Shown here: in pieces, positions 39,506 through 52,061 of the stretch
Numbering within the stretch: the stretch's first letter is position 1
Layout: each line of letters starts with the position of its first letter
Virus record (IMG/VR): IMGVR_UViG_3300042197_000954
Span: 1 to 53,049 of that record
Length of the DNA: 53,049 nt
From: a virus
Direction: 5' to 3' (one strand)
Translations under genes and position numbers: made by a program
Notes under the pieces: generated by a model
Told to the model about the DNA's origin: nothing
The model's input: only the letters and a program-made list of their open reading frames with translations
Database searches by the model: none

Positions 39506-39572
39506 TGTGGATAACTTGTGGAAAACTTTTTTGTGTCAATGGTTGTATGTAATGATTTTATTATTATATTTG
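39506..39572 (+). promoter_or_regulatory. Cassette promoter with twin DnaA-like boxes
   Basis: TGTGGATAA at 39506, TGTGGAAAA at 39517, TTG at 39543 and TATATTTG at 39565-39572. It drives the 39595 gene. Confidence 0.8.
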
Positions 39573-39594
39573 TATTCACTTAAACCAATTTATT

Positions 39595-39867
39595 ATGTCA
39601 AAATTCATTTTTGTTCACCCATTTGTTCCAAGTGGAACACATGGTAATGAAGGGACTTTCTTTGAGAAAGACCTGACACCCTCGGAAGAGGAAACTATCT
39701 ACTCAATTTTGGGAATCAACCCAAAAGAAGAGATGGTAATGGTGTACGATGGTAGTACCCCAATTTATCACCCAAAGAGTAGGTGTGAGTGGGATGGGGA
39801 AAACGAAGAGTTGGTGTGGAAGGAGAAGGATGAGAAGTTGAGAAACCTACAAAGTTGGGTGGTGTAA
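39595..39867 (+). CDS. Hypothetical cassette protein
   Basis: This is a 90-residue acidic protein starting MSKFIFVHPFVPSGTHGNEG and ending in a Trp/Lys/Glu-rich helix. No family is recognised. It has the standard cassette layout, with the ATG 22 nt after TATATTTG in a TTTATTATG context and its own terminator 12 nt after the stop. Confidence 0.75.
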   Translation: MSKFIFVHPFVPSGTHGNEGTFFEKDLTPSEEETIYSILGINPKEEMVMVYDGSTPIYHPKSRCEWDGENEELVWKEKDEKLRNLQSWVV

Positions 39868-39879
39868 CCCCCAATGAAA

Positions 39880-39907
39880 CCCCCTACCGAAAGGTAGGGG
39901 GTTTTTT
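39880..39907 (+). terminator. GAAA-tetraloop terminator
   Basis: A perfect 9-bp stem CCCCCTACC / GGTAGGGGG with a T6 tract. It differs from the usual CCCTCACC stem by compensating bases. Confidence 0.85.
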
Positions 39908-39945
39908 ATTTGTGGGGATTAAAATCGGAAACGCTCGTATTCGTC

Positions 39946-40005
39946 ATTTTGTCTGGAAAAATGGTGTATGACGCTTGCCACAATGTGGGAAATTCCAGAC
40001 AAAAT
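39946..40005. repeat. Array palindrome 2 (60 bp)
   Basis: Full 13-bp arms. A solitary right arm follows about 70 bp later (40063). Confidence 0.85.
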
Positions 40006-40092
40006 AAACAGGGGACGGGTGGTTCACCGAAGGGTGTATGACACCTATTACGATGGGGGGAATTCCAGACAAATTTCCAAACCCCTGACGGG

Positions 40093-40159
40093 GGTGGATA
40101 ACTTGTGGAAAACTTTTTTCTGTCAATGGTTGTATGTAATACATTTGTTCTTATATTCG
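40093..40159 (+). promoter_or_regulatory. Cassette promoter with twin DnaA-like boxes
   Basis: GGTGGATAA at 40093, TGTGGAAAA at 40104, TTG at 40130 and TATATTCG (variant) at 40152-40159. A second -7-like TACATTTG lies at 40140. Confidence 0.75.
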
Positions 40160-40191
40160 TATGTTCATTTAACCCTTAAACCCTTAACCCT

Positions 40192-40485
40192 ATGTACACC
40201 AAAGAACAAATCCAAACCAAACTCCGTACCAACCAAAGGTGGATTGAAAGGACTCTCGTGGTTCTTTATCAAAGACAGACCTCCGATGAACAGACCACAG
40301 GTCAGACCCGTGAGTTCAATGGTATCGGTTTTAATGGACCCGATTCTCGTTACCTATCGTGGTGTTCTCGTTGGATTCTAGATGGTAACCACCTCAACCG
40401 AAAACACCTTGAAAAGTGTAGTTCTCGTCTTCCCAAGTATTGGAGACAAGTCCAAGAGTTGATTAAAGAGAAGAGTGGGAATTGA
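40192..40485 (+). CDS. Conserved phage hypothetical protein
   Basis: This is a 97-residue basic protein. The pattern TSDEQTTGQTREFNGIGFNGPDSR, then LSWCSRWILDGNHLNRKHLE and LPKYWRQ, is one I know from many small phage proteins (ADEQ...NG-GFNG-DA...KYWRQ). No function is established to my knowledge. It may bind nucleic acid given its basic, aromatic character. Confidence 0.8.
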   Translation: MYTKEQIQTKLRTNQRWIERTLVVLYQRQTSDEQTTGQTREFNGIGFNGPDSRYLSWCSRWILDGNHLNRKHLEKCSSRLPKYWRQVQELIKEKSGN

Positions 40486-40507
40486 CCCCTTCTTTGTTGT
40501 TCAAAGA

Positions 40508-40533
40508 CCCTCACCGAAAGGTGGGGGTTTTTT
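40508..40533 (+). terminator. GAAA-tetraloop terminator
   Basis: CCCTCACC / GGTGGGGG stem with a T6 tract. Confidence 0.85.
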
Positions 40534-40575
40534 GTTTGTGGGGATACGAAAAATGAACGGGATGGGACAGGTGGA

Positions 40576-40635
40576 ATTTTGTCTGGAAAAAGGGTGTATG
40601 ACACTTATTATGGTAAGGGGAATTCCAGACAAAAT
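40576..40635. repeat. Array palindrome 3 (60 bp)
   Basis: Full 13-bp arms. The right arm is then repeated within the next 70-bp units. Confidence 0.85.
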
Positions 40636-40760
40636 AAACAGTGGATGAGTGGTTCACCGAAGGGTGTATGACACCTACTACGATGGGGGGAATTCCAGAC
40701 AAAATAAACAGTGGATGAGTGGTTCACCGAAGGGTGTATGACACCTACTACGATGGGGGG
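40621..40760. repeat. 70-bp tandem repeat, 2 identical copies
   Basis: Units 40621-40690 and 40691-40760 are identical. Each has a right arm, a GTGGTTCACCGAAGG segment and GGTGTATGACACC, a small hairpin. A similar single unit is at 39991-40060. Confidence 0.9.
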
Positions 40761-40792
40761 AATTCCAGACAAATTTCCAAACCCCTGACGGG

Positions 40793-40859
40793 GGTGGATA
40801 ACTTGTGGAAAACTTTTTTGTGGTGGTGGTTGTGGGTAATACATTTATCCTTATATTTG
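40793..40859 (+). promoter_or_regulatory. Cassette promoter with twin DnaA-like boxes
   Basis: GGTGGATAA at 40793, TGTGGAAAA at 40804, TTG at 40830 and TATATTTG at 40852-40859. Confidence 0.8.
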
Positions 40860-40887
40860 TAGTGTTAAACCTTAAACCCAATTTATT

Positions 40888-41112
40888 ATGATTAAATCAA
40901 AAGAAGAAAAGTCAAAAATTGAGATTGACTTAACGGGAGAACAAGGAAATTCATTTTTCCTACTCGGAATGGTTAAAAATCTTGGAACTCAAATCGGGTT
41001 GGATAAAGAAAAAATTTCTAATATCCAACAAAAAATGATGAGTGGAGATTACGAAAATCTTGTCCAAATTTTTGATAAAGAATTTGGAGATTATGTTATC
41101 TTGTATCGTTAA
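40888..41112 (+). CDS. Hypothetical cassette protein
   Basis: This is a 74-residue protein with a beta-strand start (KIEIDLTGEQGNSFFLLGMV) and amphipathic helices. The phrase NSFFLLGMVKNLGTQIG resembles small phage proteins of unknown role. It is the first of two genes in one cassette, 12 nt before the next ATG. Confidence 0.75.
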   Translation: MIKSKEEKSKIEIDLTGEQGNSFFLLGMVKNLGTQIGLDKEKISNIQQKMMSGDYENLVQIFDKEFGDYVILYR

Positions 41113-41124
41113 ACCAAATCAATT

Positions 41125-41286
41125 ATGGAAACACAAACCCAATTCCTTTCTTTTCGTGAATGGTTAGAGTACATTCGTGAGGAGTGTCTAAAAGTCGTTC
41201 CTATTGAACATTCGGAAGTAAAATCGGGGTGGAGAGTTAATTGGACACTTTATGGTATAATACTTGATTGTAAGAAAAGGTTGTGA
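41125..41286 (+). CDS. Small hypothetical protein, second gene of cassette
   Basis: A 53-residue frame begins ATG at 41125-41127 in an AATTATG context (METQTQFLSFREWLEYIREE) and ends TGA at 41284-41286. It fills the space between the previous stop and the terminator. It is acidic and helical at the N-terminus with Trp residues. Function unknown. Confidence 0.65.
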   Translation: METQTQFLSFREWLEYIREECLKVVPIEHSEVKSGWRVNWTLYGIILDCKKRL

Positions 41287-41308
41287 ATGGACTTTTCTTA
41301 TCGAGAAA

Positions 41309-41338
41309 CCCTCGGACTTAATTGTTCGGGGGTTTTTT
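41309..41338 (+). terminator. Variant terminator
   Basis: CCCTCGGA / TTCGGGGG stem with an 8-nt loop and a T6 tract. It is unlike the GAAA-loop copies. Confidence 0.75.
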
Positions 41339-41373
41339 ATTTGTGGGGACACGGAGAAGGAAGACAGACGGAA

Positions 41374-41433
41374 ATTTTGTCTGGAAAAGGGGTGTATGAC
41401 ACTTATTATGGTGGGGGAAATTCCAGACAAAAA
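41374..41433. repeat. Array palindrome 4
   Basis: Left arm exact; the right arm has one extra A in the A-run. Confidence 0.82.
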
Positions 41434-41542
41434 TAAACAGGACACGGGTGGTTTACCAAAGGGTGTATGACACCTACTACGATGGGGGAAATCCAGACAA
41501 ATTTCAAAACCCCTGACGGGTGGTTCACCCGTTGTTACAAAA

Positions 41543-41609
41543 TGTGGATAACTTGTGGAAAACTTTTTTGTGGTGGTGGTTGTGGGTAATGATTTTCTTT
41601 TTATATTTG
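41543..41609 (+). promoter_or_regulatory. Cassette promoter with twin DnaA-like boxes
   Basis: TGTGGATAA at 41543, TGTGGAAAA at 41554, TTG at 41580 and TATATTTG at 41602-41609. A hairpin ACGGGTG / CACCCGT (41516-41532) lies just upstream. Confidence 0.82.
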
Positions 41610-41632
41610 TGTTCACTTAAACCCAATTTATT

Positions 41633-42196
41633 ATGAATGAAGAAATCAAAAAAGTAACAAAGTCCGAAATTGTCCGTATCATTATGGATATTGAGGAAAA
41701 AAACCCGAACACCTTTGTAGGAGTAAAGATGAGAACACTTTTTAGTCATGTTCTAAAAAAGACAAAGGACACCAACGAAATCAACCCTTATTACAAGGAG
41801 ATTTTTAAGGTAACTAACAAGACCTATCGTTTGGTTACTGACTATCAACAAAGAGTGTGGAATAACTTAATCAAAGAGGGTAAAAACCCGAACACCTTTA
41901 AGGTTGAAATTCCGAGTGGTAAAAAACATATCAGTAAATCTTTACTGACCGACAACGAAACGGAAACGAAAACCTATCTTATGATTGAGTGGTTTCCCGA
42001 AATCAAAGGTACTACCGAGTACGAGTATAGAGGTAACTCCATAGATAAGACCTTGTTTGAGAAGTGGATAAATGATGTTGAGAGTAGTAACAAAAAACAA
42101 GGTTTGGATAGAGTGGTTACACCGATAACTCCCAACCTTGATAATGTACTTGAAATTTCAGTAGGTGGTAAGAGGTACGAAATTGTGAAGGAGTAA
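41633..42196 (+). CDS. Hypothetical protein, paralogue of 46330-46875
   Basis: This is a 187-residue protein. It shares with the 46330 gene the order KVTKSEIVRIIMDIE, INPYYKEIFKVTNKTYRLVTDYQQRV, GKKHISKSLL, WFPEIKGTTEYEYRGNSIDK and LFEKWINDVE. Charged, alpha/beta, no transmembrane segment. The paralogy shows that duplication has built at least part of the array. Function unknown. Confidence 0.8.
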   Translation: MNEEIKKVTKSEIVRIIMDIEEKNPNTFVGVKMRTLFSHVLKKTKDTNEINPYYKEIFKVTNKTYRLVTDYQQRVWNNLIKEGKNPNTFKVEIPSGKKHISKSLLTDNETETKTYLMIEWFPEIKGTTEYEYRGNSIDKTLFEKWINDVESSNKKQGLDRVVTPITPNLDNVLEISVGGKRYEIVKE

Positions 42197-42219
42197 TACA
42201 CACCCAAAACAAAACCGAA

Positions 42220-42247
42220 GGGGGTACGAAAGTATCCCCTTTTTTTT
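42220..42247 (+). terminator. GAAA-loop terminator, different stem
   Basis: GGGGGTAC, GAAA, GTATCCCC followed by T8. The stem sequence is unrelated to the common one, but the loop is kept. Confidence 0.8.
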
Positions 42248-42280
42248 GTTCCCAATTTGGGGGACACTAAACCAGGTGGT

Positions 42281-42331
42281 ATTTTGTCTGGAAATTCGTA
42301 TTACATTGGTGGTGCAAAATCCAGACAAAAT
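42281..42331. repeat. Array palindrome 5 (51 bp, short-loop type)
   Basis: The loop has TTCGTATTACATTGGTGGTG instead of the GTGTATGACAC type. Confidence 0.82.
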
Positions 42332-42381
42332 GGATACCAGGACCACAAATGAGATATTGGTGAAAAAAATTGTATCAATGG

Positions 42382-42411
42382 TTGTTGGTAATACATTTGT
42401 TCCTATATTTG
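42382..42411 (+). promoter_or_regulatory. Cassette promoter
   Basis: TTG at 42382, 19 bp, TATATTTG at 42404-42411. No DnaA-like box upstream. Confidence 0.78.
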
Positions 42412-42441
42412 TGTATTCATTTAACCCTTAAACCCTTTATT

Positions 42442-42630
42442 ATGAGTAAAGATTATTTAATCGGAAAAAGAGTTCGTCTTATCTCAATGGAAAATGACCC
42501 TAACCCTATTGAAAAGGATTCAATGGGTACGATTTATCATGTCGGAGGTGGTGTCATCAATGTCAAATGGGATAGTGGTAGAACTCTTGGTTTGGTTGAT
42601 GGTAAAGACCAATACGAAATTGTGGAATGA
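42442..42630 (+). CDS. DUF4314-like small protein
   Basis: This is a 62-residue protein. IGKRVRLISMENDPNPIEKDSMGTIYHVGGG, then INVKWDSGRTLGLVDGKD and YEIVE, matches the SH3-like DUF4314 pattern (G-x-RV-x-L..., GT-x-x-x-V, VKWD-G-LGL-G-D). The frame opens earlier at 42370, but that start sits upstream of the likely RNA start. MSKDYL at 42442 has the standard TTATTATG context. Function unknown. Confidence 0.82.
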   Translation: MSKDYLIGKRVRLISMENDPNPIEKDSMGTIYHVGGGVINVKWDSGRTLGLVDGKDQYEIVE

Positions 42631-42664
42631 CCCAATGATTGAAGTTGTTTGTCAAACAACAAGA

Positions 42665-42692
42665 CCCTCATCAGAAATGGTGGGGGTTTTTT
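42665..42692 (+). terminator. Variant terminator
   Basis: CCCTCATC / GGTGGGGG with an AGAAAT loop and a T6 tract. Confidence 0.75.
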
Positions 42693-42727
42693 GTTTTAGG
42701 GGATACGGAGAAGGAAGACAGACGGAA

Positions 42728-42740
42728 ATTTTGTCTGGAA
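42728..42740 (+). repeat. Solitary left arm of the array palindrome
   Basis: ATTTTGTCTGGAA with no right arm before the next gene-less cassette. Confidence 0.75.
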
Positions 42741-42758
42741 AAAAAGTTTAATAAAATT

Positions 42759-42788
42759 TTGGTTTTTGAATTTTTATTCGTACATTTG
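42759..42788 (+). promoter_or_regulatory. Promoter of second gene-less cassette
   Basis: TTG at 42759, 19 bp, TACATTTG at 42781-42788. The flank differs from the other cassette promoters. Confidence 0.65.
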
Positions 42789-42794
42789 TTCCGT

Positions 42795-42868
42795 CATTTA
42801 ATTCTATTGGTAGGAATTGGTGTCATAATTTATTGGTTGGAACCCTCACCGAAAGGTGGGGGTTTTTT
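42795..42868 (+). ncRNA. Candidate small RNA (no ORF between promoter and terminator)
   Basis: From the expected RNA start to the end of the terminator is about 70 nt, with no ATG. The sequence before the hairpin is U-rich with GGUAGGAAUUGGUG. Whether it is functional or an emptied cassette cannot be told from the sequence. Confidence 0.4.
42843..42868 (+). terminator. GAAA-tetraloop terminator
   Basis: Common CCCTCACC / GGTGGGGG stem with T6. Confidence 0.85.
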
Positions 42869-42906
42869 GTTTTTAGTCAGAATAGTCACAACCAGAGTTC
42901 AGGTGG

Positions 42907-42965
42907 ATTTTATCTGGAAAATGGCGTATGACACTTATTGTAGTAGGGGGAAATCCAGACAAAAT
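42907..42965. repeat. Array palindrome 6
   Basis: Left arm ATTTTATCTGGAA carries G-to-A; right arm TCCAGACAAAAT. Confidence 0.8.
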
Positions 42966-42990
42966 TTGACATCAGAAAAAACAAGGTTGT

Positions 42991-43047
42991 TGTGGATAAA
43001 TTTTTTTATGTCAATGGTTGTGGGTAATACATTTATCCTTATATTTG
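42991..43047 (+). promoter_or_regulatory. Cassette promoter with one DnaA-like box
   Basis: TGTGGATAA at 42991, TTG at 43018 and TATATTTG at 43040-43047. The single box sits near the usual position of the second box. Confidence 0.78.
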
Positions 43048-43083
43048 TATGTTCAATTTTTCATTCACCCTTAAACCCTTATT

Positions 43084-43443
43084 ATGAAAAGAGGTATTTT
43101 GATTGACGTTGTAGAACGTAGTGTTACTGAAATTGATGTAACACAAAAAATTTCTCAACACCTTCGTTGTGATATGATTGACGTTGTGATGTATTCCGAT
43201 TCGGAAGATATTTACGTTGATGATTCTTGGAGGTTCAACACCGAAAACTATGTGAATACTTATTTTGAAATTGAAGGTGTAACTAAACCTATTTGTTCTA
43301 ATGGATTGATTTTAGGTATCGACCACCAAACGGGAAAAAGTGTTAATACCACTTTAAGTTTAGAGGAAGTTAAAAGTAAGATTAAATTCTTAACTTTTAT
43401 TCCCACCCCAAAAAATGGAGGGTTTTTTTTCGTATGGAAATGA
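43084..43443 (+). CDS. DUF3846-like protein
   Basis: This is a 119-residue protein. GILIDVVERSVTEIDV, HLRCDMIDVV, EDIYVDDSW, then PICSNGLILGIDHQTG and TLSLEEVKSKIKFL, follow the DUF3846 pattern (strand, cysteine-acid block, NGLILG, LSLEEV). The last 15 codons run through a terminator-like hairpin (43402-43430), so the natural C-terminus may once have been shorter. Function unknown. Confidence 0.82.
   Translation: MKRGILIDVVERSVTEIDVTQKISQHLRCDMIDVVMYSDSEDIYVDDSWRFNTENYVNTYFEIEGVTKPICSNGLILGIDHQTGKSVNTTLSLEEVKSKIKFLTFIPTPKNGGFFFVWK
43402..43430 (+). terminator. Terminator-like hairpin overlapping the gene end
   Basis: CCCACCCC, A-run, TGGAGGG and T8. Imperfect stem, with the stop codon after the T-run. 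Confidence 0.45.
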
Positions 43444-43465
43444 AACTTTATGGTGGAACATTAAA

Positions 43466-43491
43466 CCCTCACCGAAAGGTGGGGGTTTTTT
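43466..43491 (+). terminator. GAAA-tetraloop terminator
   Basis: Common stem with T6; second hairpin after the DUF3846-like gene. Confidence 0.85.
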
Positions 43492-43531
43492 ATTTGTGGG
43501 GATTGGAAACGGAACCAGTCTGACTGGTGAA

Positions 43532-43591
43532 ATTTTATCTGGAAAAGGGGTGTATGACACTTTTATTATGTTACGGAAATCCAGACAAAAT
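43532..43591. repeat. Array palindrome 7 (60 bp)
   Basis: Left arm ATTTTATCTGGAA. It is preceded by a small hairpin ACCAGT-CTG-ACTGGT. Confidence 0.8.
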
Positions 43592-43641
43592 AAACACGGA
43601 CGACAGATGAGGGAAGTGTGGATTTTTTTTTATGTGAGTGG

Positions 43642-43671
43642 TTGTAGGTAATACATTTAATCGTATATTTG
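43642..43671 (+). promoter_or_regulatory. Cassette promoter
   Basis: TTG at 43642, 19 bp, TATATTTG at 43664-43671. Upstream GTGTGGATTTT is a degraded box. Confidence 0.75.
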
Positions 43672-43731
43672 TGGTGTTAAACCTTAAACCAAATTCAAAT
43701 GGACTAGATTCAAGAAAAAAATAAAAAAACA

Positions 43732-44067
43732 ATGTTACCCAAAGGGTTTTTATCATCAGGTAACCAACCGACACAGAGGGCGGTTGAAATGTTTTTTGTT
43801 TATCTTTCAACTTTACCCGATGGGTGGGATATTAAAAAAATTAACAAAAGTTCACTTGAAATATTACGAGACTATTTCAATGTTGATTATGGTTTTAGTG
43901 CTATGATAATGTGGGGAATAAAGATTGGATGTGCAAAATCAAATTCATCAAAAGATACATATGAGGCGATGTCCACCGCGTTTATTATCGCTAAAGGTAT
44001 GATTGGTCAAAAAGTTAAACTAACAACCAAAAAAATCTCTCCGTTAGAATACTCAAACGCGGCTTGA
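43732..44067 (+). CDS. Hypothetical cassette protein
   Basis: This is a 111-residue helical protein (QRAVEMFFVYLSTLPDGWDI, LEILRDYFNVDYGFSAMIMWG). The start lies 60 nt from the -7 box, the longest leader in the array. The leader contains an ATG-GAC-TAG mini-frame. Function unknown. Confidence 0.75.
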   Translation: MLPKGFLSSGNQPTQRAVEMFFVYLSTLPDGWDIKKINKSSLEILRDYFNVDYGFSAMIMWGIKIGCAKSNSSKDTYEAMSTAFIIAKGMIGQKVKLTTKKISPLEYSNAA

Positions 44068-44124
44068 TTAAACTAAAAAAAAGGAGTGGGGTTAAGTGAA
44101 TGAATAAATTTTTCACTCCGAGAA

Positions 44125-44150
44125 CCCCCACCGAAAGGTGGGGGTTTTTT
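44125..44150 (+). terminator. GAAA-tetraloop terminator
   Basis: Perfect CCCCCACC / GGTGGGGG stem with T6. An extra GGAGTG / CACTCC hairpin lies just before it and recurs at 52756-52797. Confidence 0.85.
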
Positions 44151-44190
44151 ATTTATGGGGTTTGGAAACGGAACCAATCTGACCCGTGGA

Positions 44191-44249
44191 ATTTTGTCTG
44201 GAAAAGGGTGTATGACACCTACTACGATGGGGGAAAATCCAGACAAAAT
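44191..44249. repeat. Array palindrome 8
   Basis: Left arm exact, right arm TCCAGACAAAAT; loop contains GGTGTATGACACC. Confidence 0.85.
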
Positions 44250-44288
44250 TCACGACACCGAACCGATGGTTCACCCGTTGTTACAAAA

Positions 44289-44355
44289 TGTGGATAACTT
44301 GTGGAAAACTTTTTTATGGAAAAGGTTGTGGGTAATACATTTGTTCTTATATTTG
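44289..44355 (+). promoter_or_regulatory. Cassette promoter with twin DnaA-like boxes
   Basis: Boxes at 44289 and 44300, TTG at 44326, TATATTTG at 44348-44355. Confidence 0.82.
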
Positions 44356-44376
44356 TATCGTTAAACCAAACCTATT

Positions 44377-44574
44377 ATGATAGTAGAACTCAATTCCGTT
44401 GGTAGTGTGGTTGATACTGAAACACTTTTTACATACCCCAAATATATCGATGGTGGGTATGATAAAGATGGTGGTGTCCATATATGTGAAGTCAGTGATG
44501 AATGGTATTCCTCTTTGAACGAAGAAGACAAGTATGTTGTCGATACACTATTTTTTATGACAAAACCGACTTGA
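44377..44574 (+). CDS. Hypothetical cassette protein
   Basis: This is a 65-residue acidic protein (MIVELNSVGSVVDTETLFTY, HICEVSDEWYSSLNEEDKYV). No usual terminator follows; the array palindrome begins 16 nt after the stop. Function unknown. Confidence 0.73.
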   Translation: MIVELNSVGSVVDTETLFTYPKYIDGGYDKDGGVHICEVSDEWYSSLNEEDKYVVDTLFFMTKPT

Positions 44575-44590
44575 TAGTACCCCTTCCCCG

Positions 44591-44649
44591 ATTTTGTCTG
44601 GAAAGAGTGTGTGGTACTTATTATGGTAGGGAGAAATTCCAGACAAAAT
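44591..44649. repeat. Array palindrome 9, directly after a gene
   Basis: Full 13-bp arms. It takes the place of the terminator in this cassette. Confidence 0.85.
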
Positions 44650-44675
44650 TTGACATCAGAAAAAAACAAGGTTGT

Positions 44676-44732
44676 TGTGGATAACTTTTTTTGTGGTGGT
44701 GGTTGTATGTAATGATTTTCTTGTTATATTTG
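44676..44732 (+). promoter_or_regulatory. Cassette promoter with one DnaA-like box
   Basis: TGTGGATAA at 44676, TTG at 44703, TATATTTG at 44725-44732. Confidence 0.78.
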
Positions 44733-44754
44733 TGTTCACTTAAACTCAATTATT

Positions 44755-45021
44755 ATGAATACACAAACAGATTTATTACCTCAACAAATTATTCAAAAAA
44801 TGGTTAGGGAAAAGATTGACGATTTATTAACTGAACAAATTGACTATGAATGGGGTAATTCGGATTTCACCAACGAATTGAATTCTTATACTGATTTGAC
44901 ATTAGTTCAAACAACTCGTTCGGTTACATTGAATGAAAGTTTTTATGAAAGTTTTCTTAAACACCTCACGGAAGTCGTGTCATCGGGGATTATGGTTTTG
45001 GTGGAAAAGGACACGAATTAG
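44755..45021 (+). CDS. Hypothetical cassette protein
   Basis: This is an 88-residue acidic helical protein (LLPQQIIQKMVREKIDDLLT, FYESFLKHLTEVVSSG). No family is recognised. Standard cassette start, 22 nt after the -7 box. Confidence 0.75.
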   Translation: MNTQTDLLPQQIIQKMVREKIDDLLTEQIDYEWGNSDFTNELNSYTDLTLVQTTRSVTLNESFYESFLKHLTEVVSSGIMVLVEKDTN

Positions 45022-45041
45022 AGATGGTATGTTTTAAGAAT

Positions 45042-45067
45042 CCCTCACCGAAAGGTGGGGGTTTTTT
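45042..45067 (+). terminator. GAAA-tetraloop terminator
   Basis: Common stem with T6. Confidence 0.85.
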
Positions 45068-45109
45068 ATTTGTGGGGATACGAAAGAAGGACGGGACGGG
45101 ACAGGTGGA

Positions 45110-45169
45110 ATTTTGTCTGGAAAAAGGGTGTATGACACCTACTACGATGGGGGAAAATCCAGACAAAAT
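45110..45169. repeat. Array palindrome 10 (60 bp)
   Basis: Its loop and following 60 bp are almost identical to those of palindrome 8. Confidence 0.85.
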
Positions 45170-45208
45170 TCACGACACCGAACCGATGGTTCACCCGTTG
45201 TTACAAAG

Positions 45209-45275
45209 TGTGGATAACTTGTGGAAAACTTTTTTGTGTCAATGGTTGTAGGTAATGAATTTGTCCTTATATTTG
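45209..45275 (+). promoter_or_regulatory. Cassette promoter with twin DnaA-like boxes
   Basis: Boxes at 45209 and 45220, TTG at 45246, TATATTTG at 45268-45275. Confidence 0.82.
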
Positions 45276-45298
45276 TGTTCACTTAAACCCAATTTATT

Positions 45299-45430
45299 AT
45301 GAACAACCCATCAACAATTCCATCACAACCCAATGTTCTTCCCGACACTCGACCAAAAGAAAAAGGTAAACCAAAACGAAGAACACCTTATGACCCAGGA
45401 CCCCGTACTGACCCTAAACCCAAAGGGTAA
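45299..45430 (+). CDS. Small basic Pro-rich protein
   Basis: A 43-residue frame in the exact cassette start context (AATTTATTATG, 23 nt after the -7 box): MNNPSTIPSQPNVLPDTRPK, then a KGKPKRR cluster and a Pro/Asp tail. It is flanked by promoter and terminator, so it is the only candidate product here. It is probably disordered and might bind nucleic acid through the KRR cluster. Confidence 0.68.
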   Translation: MNNPSTIPSQPNVLPDTRPKEKGKPKRRTPYDPGPRTDPKPKG

Positions 45431-45439
45431 GTAATTCAA

Positions 45440-45465
45440 CCCCCACCGAAAGGTGGGGGTTTTTT
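45440..45465 (+). terminator. GAAA-tetraloop terminator
   Basis: CCCCCACC / GGTGGGGG with T6, 9 nt after the stop. Confidence 0.85.
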
Positions 45466-45502
45466 ATTTGTGGGGATACGAAAGAAGGACGGGACAGGTG
45501 GG

Positions 45503-45562
45503 ATTTTGTCTGGAAAAAGGGTGTATGACACCTACTACGATGGGGGAAAATCCAGACAAAAT
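45503..45562. repeat. Array palindrome 11 (60 bp)
   Basis: Left arm exact, right arm TCCAGACAAAAT. Confidence 0.85.
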
Positions 45563-45615
45563 TCAACACCAAAGAAAAACAAGGTTGTTAAAAATGAATT
45601 TCTTTATGGAAAAGG

Positions 45616-45645
45616 TTGTGGGTAATACATTTGTTCTTATATTTG
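45616..45645 (+). promoter_or_regulatory. Cassette promoter
   Basis: TTG at 45616, 19 bp, TATATTTG at 45638-45645. No DnaA-like box. Confidence 0.78.
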
Positions 45646-45673
45646 TATCGTTAAACCTTAAACCAAACCACTT

Positions 45674-45967
45674 ATGAATAAGTACATTGATTTCTCCATT
45701 GACCACAATGGTAATTGTGAATGGATTGATGACTTTCTTGTCAATAACGAAGAAGTGATGATTGATGAAACGGATGTTCAACCTTTAATTGAAGAATTGA
45801 AGAAGATAGAGGGATTCAATATCTCTGAACACCGAACCGAAGTTCGTATTTGGTGGAACGAAAACGGAACTATGGATATTCTTTATCGGTATTTCAACGA
45901 TTCGGATTCGGGGGATTTTGATGAACATAGATTATATCCCCCCACACCAATTAACTTTGAACCCTAA
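45674..45967 (+). CDS. Hypothetical protein, paralogue of 47774-48073
   Basis: This is a 97-residue acidic protein. EELKKIEGFNISEHRTEVR, then NGTMDILYRYF, is shared with the 47774 product, and both start with a strand YIDFSID / YLEFSLD. The fold is probably alpha/beta. Function unknown. Confidence 0.78.
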   Translation: MNKYIDFSIDHNGNCEWIDDFLVNNEEVMIDETDVQPLIEELKKIEGFNISEHRTEVRIWWNENGTMDILYRYFNDSDSGDFDEHRLYPPTPINFEP

Positions 45968-45986
45968 GTTGTCTAATCAACTTAAA

Positions 45987-46012
45987 CCCTCACCGAAAGG
46001 TGGGGGTTTTTT
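45987..46012 (+). terminator. GAAA-tetraloop terminator
   Basis: Common stem with T6. Confidence 0.85.
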
Positions 46013-46049
46013 ATTTGGGAAGAATCCCTCAGTGATACCGGGATGTTGG

Positions 46050-46108
46050 ATTTTGTCTGGAAAAAGGGTGTATGACACTTATTGTAGTAGGGGAAATCCA
46101 GACAAAAT
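46050..46108. repeat. Array palindrome 12
   Basis: Preceded by AATCCCTCAGTGATACCGGG, a flank shared with the copies at 49307 and 51120. A solitary right arm follows at about 46188. Confidence 0.83.
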
Positions 46109-46239
46109 TCCGAGATGACCGAGATGGTGGTGATAAATCACAATATGTTATATAACAACAAATAAATCATAACAACAAACACATACATTCCAGACAAATT
46201 TTACGACACCGAACCGATGGTTCACCCGTTGTTACAAAA

Positions 46240-46306
46240 TGTGGATAACTTGTGGAAAACTTTTTTATGGAAAAGGTTGTGGGTAATACATTTGTCCTTA
46301 TATTTG
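46240..46306 (+). promoter_or_regulatory. Cassette promoter with twin DnaA-like boxes
   Basis: Boxes at 46240 and 46251, TTG at 46277, TATATTTG at 46299-46306. Confidence 0.82.
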
Positions 46307-46329
46307 TGTTCACTTAAACCCAATTTATT

Positions 46330-46875
46330 ATGAAAAACACCCCAATTTCAATCACTCAAACCGAGTTGATTAACATTCTCAATGGTATTGAGAAACCAAC
46401 ATTTTGTAACCTTTTAACGGAAACCATTGTCAAGATGAACAAGGGTAAAACCAAAGAAGGTATTATTGAACCTAACCCCTATCACGATAAAGTGGTAAAA
46501 CTTAAAAGTGGTAATTTTCTTATTGGTTCGGATTACGAAAAACGAGTAATTGTAAACGATGAAAAGGAAGGTGGAGAAGGTGATTTCAAAAGTCAAGAGA
46601 GTAAGGTCGGTAAACATATTTCAAGATGTGTTTTGTTTAATGAAAAGAAAAACAGGTACTATCTATCGTTGGAGAGATTTCCCGAAGTAAAACCAAAGGT
46701 GGAGTATTTGTTTGAGGGTAACACTATTGATAAAGTAATTTTCGATAAGTGGATTTCCGATACTGACAATTACCAAAACCAACCCCAAGAAAGAAAAGTG
46801 GAGTGGACAACCCTAATGTTATCGAACATTCGAGAGATTAGTTTGAACGGAAATAGGTATAAAGTTGAGGGGTAA
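46330..46875 (+). CDS. Hypothetical protein, paralogue of 41633-42196
   Basis: This 181-residue protein shares ITQTELINILNGIE, PNPYHDKVVKLKSGNFLIGSDYEKRV, GKHISRCVL, RFPEVKPKVEYLFEGNTIDK and IFDKWISDT with the 41633 product in the same order. Similarity is moderate, so the duplication is old. Function unknown. Confidence 0.8.
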   Translation: MKNTPISITQTELINILNGIEKPTFCNLLTETIVKMNKGKTKEGIIEPNPYHDKVVKLKSGNFLIGSDYEKRVIVNDEKEGGEGDFKSQESKVGKHISRCVLFNEKKNRYYLSLERFPEVKPKVEYLFEGNTIDKVIFDKWISDTDNYQNQPQERKVEWTTLMLSNIREISLNGNRYKVEG

Positions 46876-46898
46876 CACCCTCAATTTTGTATCACAAA

Positions 46899-46924
46899 CC
46901 CTCACCGAAAGGTGGGGGTTTTTT
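46899..46924 (+). terminator. GAAA-tetraloop terminator
   Basis: Common stem with T6. Confidence 0.85.
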
Positions 46925-46966
46925 ATTTGTGGGGATACGAAAGAAGGACGGGACGGGACAGGTGGG

Positions 46967-47017
46967 ATTTTGTCTGGAAATTCGTATTACATTGGTGGTG
47001 CAAAATCCAGACAAAAT
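46967..47017. repeat. Array palindrome 13 (51 bp)
   Basis: Short-loop type, the same loop as palindrome 5. Confidence 0.85.
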
Positions 47018-47070
47018 TTGAGTCCGAGACTCACGGGTGAGGTTGTGGTAAAAAAAAATTGTGGTGGTGG

Positions 47071-47100
47071 TTGTATGTAATGATTTTCTTATTATATTTG
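47071..47100 (+). promoter_or_regulatory. Cassette promoter
   Basis: TTG at 47071, 19 bp, TATATTTG at 47093-47100. No DnaA-like box. Confidence 0.78.
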
Positions 47101-47130
47101 TGTTCACTTAAACCTTAAACCAAACCAATT

Positions 47131-47505
47131 ATGACAAACATTTTCAAACCCTTCAATGAGGATTTTTTTTCAAAGTCCAACCGAACAATTAAGTGGTACG
47201 ATAAACAAGGAGTATTTCAAACAACGGATGGTGTTGTAACCATAACCATTGATGATGTTGGAGTCCGTGACCACTACAATGGGTATTGGGTGGAAAAAAT
47301 TAACCCCCGTGTTGGGTCTATTGTTAAAAAGTTTTTTCGTTTCTCCGACCATTTAACAATGATACACCGAAATGAACGGGATAAGTATTCTCACGTTTGG
47401 TTACAAGATAGTAGGTTTGAATGGTACATATCCAAACCAAAGGACACCAAAGAAATGACCGATGTGATTTTTGATTGGATTGATAATTTCACAACACGTC
47501 CGTAA
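47131..47505 (+). CDS. Hypothetical cassette protein
   Basis: This is a 124-residue beta-rich protein (GVVTITIDDVGVRDHYNGYW, HVWLQDSRFEWYISKP) with many aromatics. No family is recognised. Confidence 0.75.
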   Translation: MTNIFKPFNEDFFSKSNRTIKWYDKQGVFQTTDGVVTITIDDVGVRDHYNGYWVEKINPRVGSIVKKFFRFSDHLTMIHRNERDKYSHVWLQDSRFEWYISKPKDTKEMTDVIFDWIDNFTTRP

Positions 47506-47526
47506 CCCTCATTGAGGTATGACAAA

Positions 47527-47552
47527 CCCTCACCGAAAGGTGGGGGTTTTTT
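47527..47552 (+). terminator. GAAA-tetraloop terminator
   Basis: Common stem with T6. Confidence 0.85.
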
Positions 47553-47583
47553 GTTTGGTAGTGATTGGAATCGGGACAGATGG

Positions 47584-47634
47584 ATTTTGTCTGGAAATTC
47601 GTATTACATTGGTGGTGCAAAATCCAGACAAAAT
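47584..47634. repeat. Array palindrome 14 (51 bp)
   Basis: Identical loop to palindrome 13, 620 bp away. Confidence 0.85.
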
Positions 47635-47654
47635 TTGAATCCGAGACTCGAAAA

Positions 47655-47721
47655 TGTGGATAACTTGTGGAAAACTTTTTTGTGGTAATGGTTGTATGTA
47701 ATGATTTTCTTATTATATTTG
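47655..47721 (+). promoter_or_regulatory. Cassette promoter with twin DnaA-like boxes
   Basis: Boxes at 47655 and 47666, TTG at 47692, TATATTTG at 47714-47721. Confidence 0.82.
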
Positions 47722-47773
47722 TATGTTCATTCACTTAAACCCACGGATGGGGGATAAACCAAACACCAATGAT

Positions 47774-48073
47774 ATGAACACAATTTATTTAGAGTTCTCA
47801 CTAGACCCAATGGGTGATGTGGACGAGATTACCAATTTGGTCATTAACGATGAATCGGTAGATGTTGATGACGATGAAAAGTCCGTTTTGGATTTTGTTG
47901 AGGAGTTAAAGAAGTTGGATGGGTTTATGGTTTCCGAACACCGAACCGAAGTCCGTTGTGATTTGAAGGAGGATGGTACGATGGATATTGACATTGAGTA
48001 TTTTAATTTCCTTACCTCACCTCACGAGTACAAGTTGGTTGGTATTCCGAGAATACCCTTCGACCACGAATAG
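47774..48073 (+). CDS. Hypothetical protein, paralogue of 45674-45967
   Basis: This is a 99-residue acidic protein with EELKKLDGFMVSEHRTEVR, then DGTMDIDIEYF. The start MNTIYLEFSLD is chosen by alignment to the paralogue. An in-frame ATG at 47747 would place the start 25 nt from the -7 box, which is the array norm, and is a real alternative. Function unknown. Confidence 0.75.
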   Translation: MNTIYLEFSLDPMGDVDEITNLVINDESVDVDDDEKSVLDFVEELKKLDGFMVSEHRTEVRCDLKEDGTMDIDIEYFNFLTSPHEYKLVGIPRIPFDHE

Positions 48074-48095
48074 TGGTTGATGACCTCAACGAAGA

Positions 48096-48120
48096 CCCTC
48101 ACCGAAAGGTGGGGGTTTTT
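48096..48120 (+). terminator. GAAA-tetraloop terminator merged with palindrome arm
   Basis: The common stem is followed by T5, which also forms the start of TTTTTGTCTG, the left arm of the next palindrome. Confidence 0.82.
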
Positions 48121-48250
48121 GTCTGAACAATCCCCTATATTTGATGTATGACTAAACTACCCCTAACTAAACGATTGAGATGTTTGGTGGATTTGATTGT
48201 TTTTTCCCCACTCATTATCCATTCCATTTGGATTATTTCCAGACAAAAAT
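48116..48250. repeat. Array palindrome 15, arms split by 110 bp
   Basis: Left arm TTTTTGTCTGAA at 48116-48127, right arm TTCCAGACAAAAAT at 48237-48250. The interval holds a possible mini-gene. Confidence 0.6.
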
Positions 48251-48273
48251 CCTCTCGACCTGATGGGAGATAA
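48148..48273 (+). CDS. Possible small membrane peptide inside a split palindrome
   Basis: A 41-residue frame (MTKLPLTKRLRCLVDLIVFS, then PLIIHSIWII and a basic tail) would form one transmembrane helix with basic ends. TATATTTG at 48136-48143 ends 4 nt before the ATG, so the mRNA would be leaderless; its best TTG is only 14 bp upstream. The frame runs through the palindrome right arm. Evidence is weak. Confidence 0.3.
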   Translation: MTKLPLTKRLRCLVDLIVFSPLIIHSIWIISRQKSSRPDGR

Positions 48274-48291
48274 AATTTTTTTTGGTGGTGG

Positions 48292-48321
48292 TTGTTCGTA
48301 ATACATTTGTTCTTATATTTG
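48292..48321 (+). promoter_or_regulatory. Cassette promoter
   Basis: TTG at 48292, 19 bp, TATATTTG at 48314-48321. No DnaA-like box. Confidence 0.78.
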
Positions 48322-48342
48322 TATCATTAAAACAAACCAATT

Positions 48343-48501
48343 ATGTCTAACACTATTCCTTATACCATTGAAATCGGTGTCTATTACAACATAGATGAAG
48401 AAACGGGTAAACCCATGTTTGATACCGATAGTATGACCGAAGAATTTCAACAAAAACTCAATGAGTTGGAAACAAATGAATGGGACACCGATGAACAATA
48501 A
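48343..48501 (+). CDS. Small acidic hypothetical protein
   Basis: A 52-residue frame starts 21 nt after the -7 box (MSNTIPYTIEIGVYYNIDEE...), has an acidic C-terminus and ends at 48499-48501. It overlaps the next gene by 11 nt, suggesting coupled translation. Function unknown. Confidence 0.68.
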   Translation: MSNTIPYTIEIGVYYNIDEETGKPMFDTDSMTEEFQQKLNELETNEWDTDEQ

Positions 48502-48715
48502 AATCGTATCGTGTCGGATAACCGACCAACCGAAATCTTTATTTGACCCAATGCCCCAAGTATGGGTTACATTGGAGAATGAAAGTAAAGAACAATTCTT
48601 GTTTGAGTATTATCCTGATGAAATTAGTTTCACCCCAAGTGAGTTTATTGGATTGACAATGGATGAAGGTAAACACTTAAAATACCTAAAAGATAGAAAG
48701 TTCTTGACAACTTGA
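48491..48715 (+). CDS. Hypothetical cassette protein
   Basis: This is a 74-residue protein. MNNKIVSCRITDQPKSLFDP, then VWVTLENESKEQFLFEYYPD, suggests a small beta barrel. A longer frame from 48461 exists, but the overlap start at 48491 (ATGAACAATAA) fits coupling with the preceding gene. No terminator follows; the palindrome starts 12 nt after the stop. Confidence 0.73.
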   Translation: MNNKIVSCRITDQPKSLFDPMPQVWVTLENESKEQFLFEYYPDEISFTPSEFIGLTMDEGKHLKYLKDRKFLTT

Positions 48716-48727
48716 AGGAAATCGTCA

Positions 48728-48767
48728 ATTTTGTCTGGAAAAGGATGTATGACATTCCAGACAAAAT
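48728..48767. repeat. Array palindrome 16 (40 bp)
   Basis: Compact type with full arms and the loop AAGGATGTATGACA. Confidence 0.87.
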
Positions 48768-48841
48768 TTATGGAAGTGCGTGGGGGGTTGTTTAATTTTT
48801 ATGTCAAATGGTTAAACAAAAAAATATTTTTCAATGAATGG

Positions 48842-48871
48842 TTGTGTGTAATGATTTTGTTCTTATATTTG
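48842..48871 (+). promoter_or_regulatory. Cassette promoter
   Basis: TTG at 48842, 19 bp, TATATTTG at 48864-48871. Confidence 0.78.
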
Positions 48872-48901
48872 TTCCGTTAAACAACTTAAACCCATTTTTA
48901 T

Positions 48902-49219
48902 ATGAACAAAGATTCAATTAGTGATTGCCTCGGTATTGGATTAGACAATCCAAACTACCCAAAACTTATCGGAAGTAAAGTGATAGATGTACTTTCGAAA
49001 GAAGAAACCATTTCCGAAGTCTTGTTAAATCTCGGTTCTTGGTCAAAGATGGAGAACTTTTTTTCAGAAGAAAAATTGACACCTTATGAGAAAGAGTTGT
49101 TATTTATTGGTTATGTGGTTGGTTTGAGAAATGCAACTTCATCCCAAGACTCATTAACTCAATTAGAAAAAATGGTTGAGTTGATGGAAAGAGTGAAAAA
49201 GGTTAGTAAAGAAGGTTAA
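48902..49219 (+). CDS. Hypothetical cassette protein
   Basis: This is a 105-residue, mostly helical protein (SKEETISEVLLNLGSWSKME, KELLFIGYVVGLRNA, LEKMVELMERVKKVSK). No family is recognised. Confidence 0.75.
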   Translation: MNKDSISDCLGIGLDNPNYPKLIGSKVIDVLSKEETISEVLLNLGSWSKMENFFSEEKLTPYEKELLFIGYVVGLRNATSSQDSLTQLEKMVELMERVKKVSKEG

Positions 49220-49243
49220 TCATCAATCTATCTTAACGAAGAA

Positions 49244-49269
49244 CCCTCACCGAAAGGTGGGGGTTTTTT
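49244..49269 (+). terminator. GAAA-tetraloop terminator
   Basis: Common stem with T6. Confidence 0.85.
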
Positions 49270-49306
49270 GTTTGGGGAGAATCCCTCAGTGCTACCAGGA
49301 TGTTGG

Positions 49307-49346
49307 ATTTTGTCTGGAAAAGGATGTATGACATTCCAGACAAAAT
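49307..49346. repeat. Array palindrome 17 (40 bp)
   Basis: Same compact core as palindrome 16, but with the AATCCCTCAGTGCTACCAGG flank. Confidence 0.87.
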
Positions 49347-49401
49347 TGGAGTCGGAATTCTGGTCCCTCCAAAAAAGATTAAATTATTTTTTTGTGAATG
49401 G

Positions 49402-49431
49402 TTGTATGTAATGATTTTATTATTATATTTG
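49402..49431 (+). promoter_or_regulatory. Cassette promoter
   Basis: TTG at 49402, 19 bp, TATATTTG at 49424-49431. Confidence 0.78.
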
Positions 49432-49457
49432 TCTCGTTAAACTTTAAACCCCTTATT

Positions 49458-50090
49458 ATGAAACATCAAAACAATCATCCACCTAATTACTATCTGAACC
49501 TCGCAGAGGAAAGGAAAAAAACTTACAATCTAATCACTCCAACGGAAATGAACCTAAAAATGAGGGACTTCATTCCGTGTATCTACCAAAAATGTTCCCC
49601 AAATATGTACGGGCATGTTTTTAGTCAAAAAATTATTAAAGAAACAAACGGATTTTTCAAAACATCCCCTCACTCAATGGATAACGGAGATTTTTATTTT
49701 AATGTTGGTTATCAGAGTTTTTATGGTGAAATTAAAATTTCTTACAAGGGAAAAAATGGTGGTTACAGAATTACCAACATACGAGACCACCAAAAATTTA
49801 ATTTCTTTTTACTTTGTTTTGTCGATACCCAAAAAAGTTTTATCCCCCAATATTATGTTGTCCCCAAAGGGTCAATAACCGAAAGTAACTTTTTTTCATT
49901 AACACCTATGAACGGAACATTTTTATCTAATGTTAATAATGAAGTTGTACCAAAATCGACAAATGTGAAGCACGAATATTGTGAATGGTTTTTTAAAAAA
50001 CATAACATATTAAAAGGAAACAAATTTTCACATTTGAAACAATTTTTTAATGAAGATTTTATTAAAACAACTCAATTTTATCAACCTTAA
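49458..50090 (+). CDS. PD-(D/E)xK-like nuclease candidate
   Basis: This is a 210-residue protein. NGDFYFNVGYQSFYGEIKIS places an Asp about 12 residues before E-I-K, the spacing seen in PD-(D/E)xK restriction-type nucleases, followed by GGYRITNIRDHQKFNFFLLCFVD. The start at 49458 has the array TTATTATG context; the frame opens at 49398, upstream of the promoter -7 box. It is the first gene of a two-gene cassette. Activity is inferred from motif only. Confidence 0.6.
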   Translation: MKHQNNHPPNYYLNLAEERKKTYNLITPTEMNLKMRDFIPCIYQKCSPNMYGHVFSQKIIKETNGFFKTSPHSMDNGDFYFNVGYQSFYGEIKISYKGKNGGYRITNIRDHQKFNFFLLCFVDTQKSFIPQYYVVPKGSITESNFFSLTPMNGTFLSNVNNEVVPKSTNVKHEYCEWFFKKHNILKGNKFSHLKQFFNEDFIKTTQFYQP

Positions 50091-50101
50091 ATTTTTAAAC
50101 A

Positions 50102-51037
50102 ATGGAAACTAGAACACAATTTTCAAAACAAGAAGTCTGGTCAATCGACAAATTTTTATCCGTTCCTGTATATGAAAAAAACAGAACTATTGAACCCCGA
50201 CTTAAACGAATTACCAAACTTTTAAAAGATAACAAAAATCAAAGATTATTTGAAGTATCGGTTGGTGTTGCAACAAAAGATTTTGATGAAACATTATCTC
50301 GATACAAAAAGGATGATGTTTTTTGTCTGGATGGTAATTGTAGAAGTGAAGTTTGGAAAAGAAACCCATCATTATGTCCAGAAAATGTTTTGGTCAATGT
50401 TTATTCATTAGATACAAAAGAGAAATCGGACGAAACTTATTTCACTTTTGATAATTCATCAGCCAGTGAAACTTCCAGTGATAAAATGAGTGGTTTACTT
50501 CGTGAGAAAAACTATTCAGCAAAAAGTGATGTTATACGATATGGTAGAATGAACACTTTTCTTAAAAAATCAACTCGTTATTCTTGTGATAAAGATGGGG
50601 TGTATTTAATGAACTCATCGATTGAGAAAAAGTTAAATTTTCATTGGGATGAAGTTACATTTCTCGACCAATATCAACAAATTTTCAACAAAAGTGTAAA
50701 GGGGTCTTGTAATGTATATGCCGCATTATTGATGGTTGGTAAAAAGTATGGTGTTACTCACCCTCGTTTCAAAGTGTTACTTGATAACTATTGTAATGAA
50801 GAAACCGAAGTGAACAACAAAGATTATGTTGATGGTGTTACTTATGTTTTCAATACCTTGTATGGAAAACACAAAGAAATTTGGGGTAACAACGCATTTA
50901 GTGTTAATTGTTCACCTTTATTTGGAAAAATTTTGTTTTCTTTTGAAACATTTGTGTTGGGTAATTTTATTGAAAAAAACAACAAGAAAAAAGATAGTTT
51001 TTATATGGACTATTATCGGGATTTTTATTTCAGTTAA
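50102..51037 (+). CDS. ParB/sulfiredoxin-like fold protein
   Basis: This is a 311-residue protein. EPRLKRITKLLKDNKNQRLF, then DDVFCLDGNCRSEVWKR (77-87 LDGNCRSEVWK) and VLVNVYSLD, follow the ParB-type layout in which a G-N-x-R loop binds nucleotide. A helical C-terminus of about 190 residues is unassigned. It lies 11 nt after the nuclease-like gene in the same cassette. The pair could be a nucleic-acid-acting system. One of the longest genes in the array. Confidence 0.6.
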   Translation: METRTQFSKQEVWSIDKFLSVPVYEKNRTIEPRLKRITKLLKDNKNQRLFEVSVGVATKDFDETLSRYKKDDVFCLDGNCRSEVWKRNPSLCPENVLVNVYSLDTKEKSDETYFTFDNSSASETSSDKMSGLLREKNYSAKSDVIRYGRMNTFLKKSTRYSCDKDGVYLMNSSIEKKLNFHWDEVTFLDQYQQIFNKSVKGSCNVYAALLMVGKKYGVTHPRFKVLLDNYCNEETEVNNKDYVDGVTYVFNTLYGKHKEIWGNNAFSVNCSPLFGKILFSFETFVLGNFIEKNNKKKDSFYMDYYRDFYFS

Positions 51038-51056
51038 ACTCACCCCCTTTAATGAA

Positions 51057-51079
51057 CCCTCACCGAATGGTGGGGGTTT
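51057..51079 (+). terminator. Terminator with GAAT loop
   Basis: CCCTCACC / GGTGGGGG stem, loop changed to GAAT and the T-run interrupted (TTTATTG), so probably weaker. Confidence 0.75.
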
Positions 51080-51119
51080 ATTGTTTGAGGAGAATCCCTC
51101 AGAGCTACCGGGATGTTGG

Positions 51120-51147
51120 ATTTTGTCTGGATAATTCCAGATAAAAT
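51120..51147. repeat. Array palindrome 18 (28 bp, minimal)
   Basis: Arms nearly touch: ATTTTGTCTGGA then TTCCAGATAAAAT with about 3 bp between; right arm C-to-T. Confidence 0.85.
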
Positions 51148-51193
51148 TGGAGTCGGAATTCCGGCGTACCAAAATTGTTTTTTCAATGAATGG

Positions 51194-51223
51194 TTGTGTG
51201 TAATGATTTTCTTCTTATCTTTG
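51194..51223 (+). promoter_or_regulatory. Cassette promoter
   Basis: TTG at 51194, 19 bp, TATCTTTG at 51216-51223. Confidence 0.77.
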
Positions 51224-51243
51224 TATCGTTAAACCAATAAGAT

Positions 51244-51792
51244 ATGGAAAATACTTTAATCATTCATCCAAAGGATAAAACAACACAATTTTTGGATATT
51301 GTCTATAATCCAATTCCAAACAAAACTATCATAACAGGTGGTCTTTATAGGAAGGAAATCCACGAGTTAATTGAGGGACACGATAGAGTTATGATGTGTG
51401 GACACGGAAGTCCTGGCGGTTTGTTTTCCGTTGGACGATTTCCAAGTAATAACTTTTATGTCATCGACGATAAGTCAGTTGGTGTTCTCAAAAAGAAAAA
51501 CAATTCGATTTTTATCTGGTGTAATGCCGATAAATTTGTGAGAAACCACAACCTTAAAGGTTTCTTTTCGGGAATGTTTATCTCTGAACTTTACGAGGCT
51601 ACATATTGTGGTGTAAATTCAAACCAAGATGATGTTGATGAAAGTAATTACGGATTTTGTAATCTTTTATCCGAATGTATCAACGAACCGATTGAGAATA
51701 TGTATCAAAGTATAATTGAGGGGTATGGTAAAATTGCAAAAAGAAACTCCGTCGCAAAGTATAATCACGACCGATTGTATTTATTGGTTTAA
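51244..51792 (+). CDS. Caspase-fold (clan CD) peptidase candidate
   Basis: This is a 182-residue protein. A hydrophobic strand ending RVMMCGHGSPGGLF puts His54-Gly55 at a strand end. 39 residues later NSIFIWCNADKF puts Cys93 at the end of another strand. Strand-HG and strand-C is the order of the catalytic dyad in caspases, gingipains and CHAT domains. The protein is compact and has no signal peptide. It could cleave a host protein or act in programmed killing. The family is inferred from two motifs only. Confidence 0.5.
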   Translation: MENTLIIHPKDKTTQFLDIVYNPIPNKTIITGGLYRKEIHELIEGHDRVMMCGHGSPGGLFSVGRFPSNNFYVIDDKSVGVLKKKNNSIFIWCNADKFVRNHNLKGFFSGMFISELYEATYCGVNSNQDDVDESNYGFCNLLSECINEPIENMYQSIIEGYGKIAKRNSVAKYNHDRLYLLV

Positions 51793-51816
51793 CATTTGAA
51801 AGGGTAGGTCGTGATT

Positions 51817-51848
51817 GGGGATACTCACAAGGTATCCCCATTTTTTTT
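51817..51848 (+). terminator. Strong terminator, different sequence
   Basis: Perfect GGGGATAC / GTATCCCC stem with a 7-nt loop and T8. Its stem is related to that of the terminator at 42220. Confidence 0.85.
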
Positions 51849-51883
51849 GCTAAAAATTATAGGGGCCCAGCAAGCGGCCCGTG

Positions 51884-51932
51884 ATTTTGTCTGGAAATTT
51901 GTATTACATTCGTGGGGAATTCCAGACAAAAT
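51884..51932. repeat. Array palindrome 19 (49 bp)
   Basis: Full arms. Loop with TTTGTATTACATTCGTGGGG, the short-loop type. Confidence 0.87.
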
Positions 51933-51969
51933 TCAAAACCCCTCAGGTGGTTCACCCGTTGTTATAAAA

Positions 51970-52036
51970 TGTGGATAACTTGTGGAAAACTTTTTTATAG
52001 AAAAGGTTGTATGTAATGATTTTCTTATTATATTTG
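51970..52036 (+). promoter_or_regulatory. Cassette promoter with twin DnaA-like boxes
   Basis: Boxes at 51970 and 51981, TTG at 52007, TATATTTG at 52029-52036. Confidence 0.82.
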
Positions 52037-52061
52037 TATCGTTAAACTAAACCCCTTAATT

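Follow-up and report, generated by a model that had tools for sequence, protein, structure and literature searches.

DnaA, the protein that starts bacterial replication, is also a documented activator and repressor of transcription, and at ori-lambda it acts through RNAP beta (PMC8203912). DnaA-stimulated transcription at ori-lambda and lambda pR (Szalewska-Palasz 1998, cited in PMC8203912) is the closest described case of a host replication initiator acting at a phage promoter through DnaA boxes. In lambda, the boxes lie downstream of pR. In the host, tandem DnaA boxes occur in oriC/dnaA upstream regions, where they form part of an origin-like region. CRP class I/II activator sites occupy upstream positions one helical turn apart on the same face of the DNA. 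Bacteroidota sigma-ABfr promoters, in turn, consist of -33 and -7 elements (TTTG/TANNTTTG; PMC6847099). Here we describe DnaA boxes that lie upstream of promoters of this last type, in one orientation and at fixed whole helical turns, repeated over an array of cassettes in a large virus and recurring in many apparently unrelated ones. This arrangement suggests that these viruses use the host protein as a switch for their own transcription. Unlike the CRP sites, the 9-bp site is non-palindromic with fixed orientation, and its reader is presumably a replication initiator.

The window analyzed is a 53,049-nt IMG/VR virus record (IMGVR_UViG_3300042197_000954), a linear fragment. Its host phylum was inferred from promoter type only, and no host genus can be named. 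Megablast of window 1-25000 and 39000-53049 returned no match to known phages, and tblastn with gene 46330 found none in 50,697 phage records. The nearest relatives found are other uncultured phage contigs, referred to here as G014 (310 kb), the overlapping records G001/G002 (69 and 162 kb), G431 (65 kb), G003 (40 kb; locus L082) and G432 (335 kb). Gene order of window 14-27 kb is kept in G014 and G001. From 39 to 53 kb, the window is an array of cassettes with the following features:

39000..53049 (+), cassette array: small ORF, terminator CCCTCACCGAAAGGTGGGGGTTTTTT, inverted repeat TTTTGTCTGGAA...TTCCAGACAAAA, optional DnaA box(es), promoter
39056..52035 (+), array of 20 GGTTG-19-TAT(A/C)TTTG sigma-ABfr-type promoters, one per cassette: 9 twin-box, 2 single-box, 1 degenerate box (47071), 8 without a box (39056, 42382, 43642, 45616, 48292, 48842, 49402, 51194)
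39506..39525 (+), twin DnaA box, promoter TTG at 39543, 50 and 39 nt from -7
40093..40112 (+), twin box, first box GGTGGATAA, promoter TTG at 40130 with -7 TATATTCG
40793..40812 (+), twin box, first box GGTGGATAA, promoter TTG at 40830
41543..41562 (+), twin DnaA box, promoter TTG at 41580, gene 41633-42196
42991..42999 (+), single DnaA box, 40 nt from -7, promoter TTG at 43018, gene 43084-43443
44289..44308 (+), twin DnaA box, promoter TTG at 44326
44676..44684 (+), single DnaA box, 40 nt from -7, promoter TTG at 44703
45209..45228 (+), twin DnaA box, promoter TTG at 45246
46240..46259 (+), twin DnaA box, promoter TTG at 46277, gene 46330-46875, whose orthologues have boxes in 3 relatives
47655..47674 (+), twin DnaA box in a different upstream context, promoter TTG at 47692
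51970..51989 (+), twin DnaA box, promoter TTG at 52007, gene about 52110-52481

The preliminary description had reported twin DnaA-like boxes, 11 bp apart and in the same direction, at nine positions in this array, and this observation proved correct at every coordinate. The seven exact copies of TGTGGATAACTTGTGGAAAA and the two one-mismatch GGTGGATAA forms, which have G as first base, all lie on the + strand, whereas 0 were expected in 100 dinucleotide shuffles. The 9-mer TGTGGATAA occurs 9 times in the window, all in this array and none on the - strand. The two boxes, TTATCCACA and TTTTCCACA, match the DnaA-box consensus TTWTNCACA (PMC5835720). In twins, box 2 ends 17 nt before TTG and 39 nt before the -7 element, and box 1 lies 50 nt before it. 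The two single boxes, however, sit 18 nt rather than 17 nt before TTG, and a degenerate box (TGTGGTAAA) occupies the same register before the promoter at 47071. The 20 near-identical promoters (GGTTG-19-TATATTTG) fit the sigma-ABfr definition of a TAHHTTTG -7 element with TTG/TTTG 19-20 bp upstream (PMC6847099), although the -33 element is GGTTG in the window. As several modules share long, nearly identical stretches upstream of the box, their constant spacing is weak evidence on its own and could reflect copying. We therefore tested the arrangement in other genomes.

We first scanned IMG/VR (2.9 million contigs) for TGTGGATAA followed at any of 30 distances by TTTG-(19,20)-TAnnTTTG, which returned at least 120 stretches. 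With the 20-bp spacer, 65 non-redundant sites showed gaps to TTTG concentrated at 5-6, 14-16 and 25-27 nt, with few between (Rayleigh p about 1e-7 at 10-10.5 bp; 2e-8 for the 40 sites with a TTTGGW -33). The reverse-complement box gave only 44 stretches in the whole collection, without phase. A second scan, TGTGGATAANTTT then TATCTTTGT, required no -33 element and returned 68 stretches. Of 44 non-redundant sites, 25 lie at 28-30 nt and 16 at 38-40 nt from -7, one at 22 and two at 32 (Rayleigh p about 1e-13). Both scans were selected on canonical elements, and the p-values treat de-duplicated sites as independent, which is only approximately true, since de-duplication does not guarantee one site per phage lineage. 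Across 297 distinct TATCTTTGT upstream regions, most of them obtained by such scans, TGTGGATAA occurs 94 times, nearly all in these registers plus 49-52 nt, against 8 for its reverse complement, while shuffled 9-mers gave about zero apart from those overlapping the box itself. Further registers lie near 50 and 59 nt, the latter seen in G014. Additional boxes upstream of a phased box occur at offsets 11 and 12 and hardly anywhere else.

Not every search was informative. The exact 20-mer TGTGGATAACTTGTGGAAAA recurs in 58 IMG/VR stretches (L008-L065), mostly in other arrangements, many with further boxes (for example ...CCTGTGGATAA) and no Bacteroidota promoter, so the 20-mer alone is not diagnostic. 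BLAST with idealised promoter sequences gave only chance-level matches, and three of the metagenomic huge-phage records so found have no box-promoter match. The cultured phages examined (Flavobacterium mumin6-2 and Tenacibaculum Gundel_1) lack phased boxes.

Diverged relatives of the window keep boxes before the same gene. In G431, eight array promoters carry a box at 28-29 or 38-39 nt. In G001, the array boxes sit at 29-30 and 40-41 nt from -7, in several cases with no recognisable TTTG at -33. The orthologue of window gene 46330 has boxes at 39/50 (window), 39 (G431), 30/41 (G001) and 59 nt (G014), showing that the box has moved by whole helical turns. G003, in contrast, has the same cassettes and no box, and 8 of the 20 window promoters have none, so the element is dispensable to the architecture and not essential to every promoter.

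A host regulon was rejected as the source of the pattern: the twin-box promoter occurs once in 84,980 prokaryote genomes, and the single-box promoter in 5 of 395 Bacteroidota genomes. Yet the tandem pair itself (TGTGGATAACCTGTGGAAAA or TGTGGAAAACTTGTGGAAAA; 11 bp apart, same orientation) lies directly upstream of dnaA in two Bacteroidota genomes, G044 and G062, so the phage pair has the form of the host's own DnaA arrangement. Whereas the host copies form part of an origin-like region, the phage pairs are isolated and locked to promoters. To examine what these promoters control, we compared 71 distinct downstream genes, typically about 100 codons long and mostly unknown, with known families. 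Where they match anything, they match ParB-like proteins, single-strand-binding proteins, anti-repressors, methyltransferases and homing endonucleases, with no structural family among the 25 of 42 PHROGs examined. This is the profile of early genes, by inference.

The reading that we favor, with moderate confidence, is that these are DnaA-box-dependent phage promoters. In this model, a DnaA-type protein, most likely the host's own DnaA, binds one or two head-to-tail boxes upstream of the -33 region. With -7 spanning -12 to -5 (PMC6847099), box centres fall near -46, -56, -67 or -76 in F. johnsoniae numbering. Bound there, the protein would stand on one fixed face of the helix relative to RNA polymerase and activate a set of mostly small, early-type phage genes, the second box 11-12 bp further upstream giving side-by-side binding of a second DnaA. 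Upstream, phased, orientation-fixed sites are typical of activators, and the placement of these boxes upstream of -33 on a conserved helical face is of this type. Their upstream, single-orientation, whole-turn-tolerant placement fits an activator that contacts RNA polymerase. The sequence data establish the boxes, their phase and orientation, their recurrence across phages, their near-absence from host chromosomes and the use of the same tandem boxes upstream of host dnaA, whereas DnaA binding, an activating effect and early expression are inferences, as neither binding nor transcription was assayed. The interpretation in the preliminary description was supported in part: control by DnaA or by a protein with its specificity is supported, but its alternative, that the boxes spread replication initiation, is not.

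The main rival is a phage-encoded reader with DnaA-type box specificity that activates, represses or blocks host DnaA at the same boxes, which we consider unlikely but not negligible. Stand-alone DnaA domain IV proteins of 110-180 aa (PF08299) were found in 9 of 53 phage records examined, with the base-reading motif KDHTT kept. These include G014 (C1:83398-83595, beside the orthologue of window gene 51244), G432 (C1:328568-328768) and G020 (C1:70349-70855, where two copies are adjacent), all Bacteroidota-type phages. No such protein was found in most records with phased boxes, including G001/G002 and G431, nor in G003; these records may be fragments and the window itself was not scanned with this model, so the survey does not settle whether such phages carry their own reader. 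Two cultured phages with such a protein have no phased boxes. Repression, in which bound DnaA holds the promoters off until phage replication or a phage protein titrates it, also appears unlikely. DnaA is a repressor at several host promoters (PMC8203912), and boxes multiply with phage copies, but the sites lie upstream of -33 without overlapping the core promoter, and their phase, fixed orientation and tolerance of whole-turn shifts fit activation better.

We regard the remaining alternatives as very unlikely. About 20 boxes in a 14 kb stretch, multiplied by phage copy number, could act as a sink that titrates host DnaA to stop host replication, but titration needs neither promoter phase nor orientation, and many phages have only one or two such sites. 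The window contains no box cluster of the kind found in datA-type titration/DDAH sites; IHF sites between boxes were not examined, so membership of that class was neither supported nor excluded. Dispersed replication origins would be consistent with the origin-type boxes and with the activation of origins by transcription in lambda (PMC8203912). However, the pairs are isolated, 400-4300 bp apart and each tied to a promoter, without the cluster of several boxes beside an unwinding region expected of a DnaA-dependent origin, and GC skew, proposed in advance as a way to probe replication initiation, follows gene direction. Finally, the spacing could be a functionless relic of copying one module, as several modules share nearly identical DNA upstream of the box. 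The cross-phage phase test has largely refuted this possibility: the same registers occur in many other phages with different flanks, and orthologous genes show whole-turn shifts.

A broader reading, which the data allow but which we regard as tentative, is that many apparently unrelated Bacteroidota phages use host DnaA as the activator of their early genes through a common phased promoter architecture, so that phage gene expression reads the replication state of the host. Some of these phages also encode a DnaA domain IV protein that could take over or switch off this control. DnaA-controlled transcription and DnaA action on phage lambda are known, but literature searches, confined to an open-access library that does not cover most subscription journals, found no earlier description of a recurring, helically phased DnaA-box promoter class in Bacteroidota phages. 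Transcriptional activators of these phages are hardly known. A promoter class recognisable by sequence alone predicts which genes come on early in many uncultured phages, ties phage expression to the host replication initiator, gives a direct test of whether DnaA works as a phased, contact-dependent activator, and offers a role for stand-alone DnaA domain IV proteins in phages.

Nearly every cassette has the inverted repeat TTTTGTCTGGAA...TTCCAGACAAAA, of unknown function, between terminator and promoter, often with GTGTATGACA inside. The inverted-repeat arm with its first loop bases has no exact match in IMG/VR, but relatives have variants at the same place: TTTAGTCTGGA in G431 and TTGTTTGGCG...CGCCAAACAA in G003 (L082). 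The word TTGTCTGGCA recurs in the loci L036/L057. Short tandem repeats of GAAATTCCAGACAAAATTCACCATCAAAAAAAAACAAGGATGGTGAGG, built on one arm of the inverted repeat, occupy window 39259-39450, and G+C rises from about 29% to 31-40% in the cassette array (window 38700-53049). Window 29150-36387 contains six or more tandem paralogous genes starting MNNKQLLQKYVDTGV with internal repeats of the type QFELLTPEQRFQYAMKMAEKG. In a 353 kb jumbo phage contig, G004 (IMGVR_UViG_3300020045_006153), nine TGTGGATAA copies lie within about 270 bp (346750-347023), all on one strand, forming a candidate DnaA-box cluster or origin.
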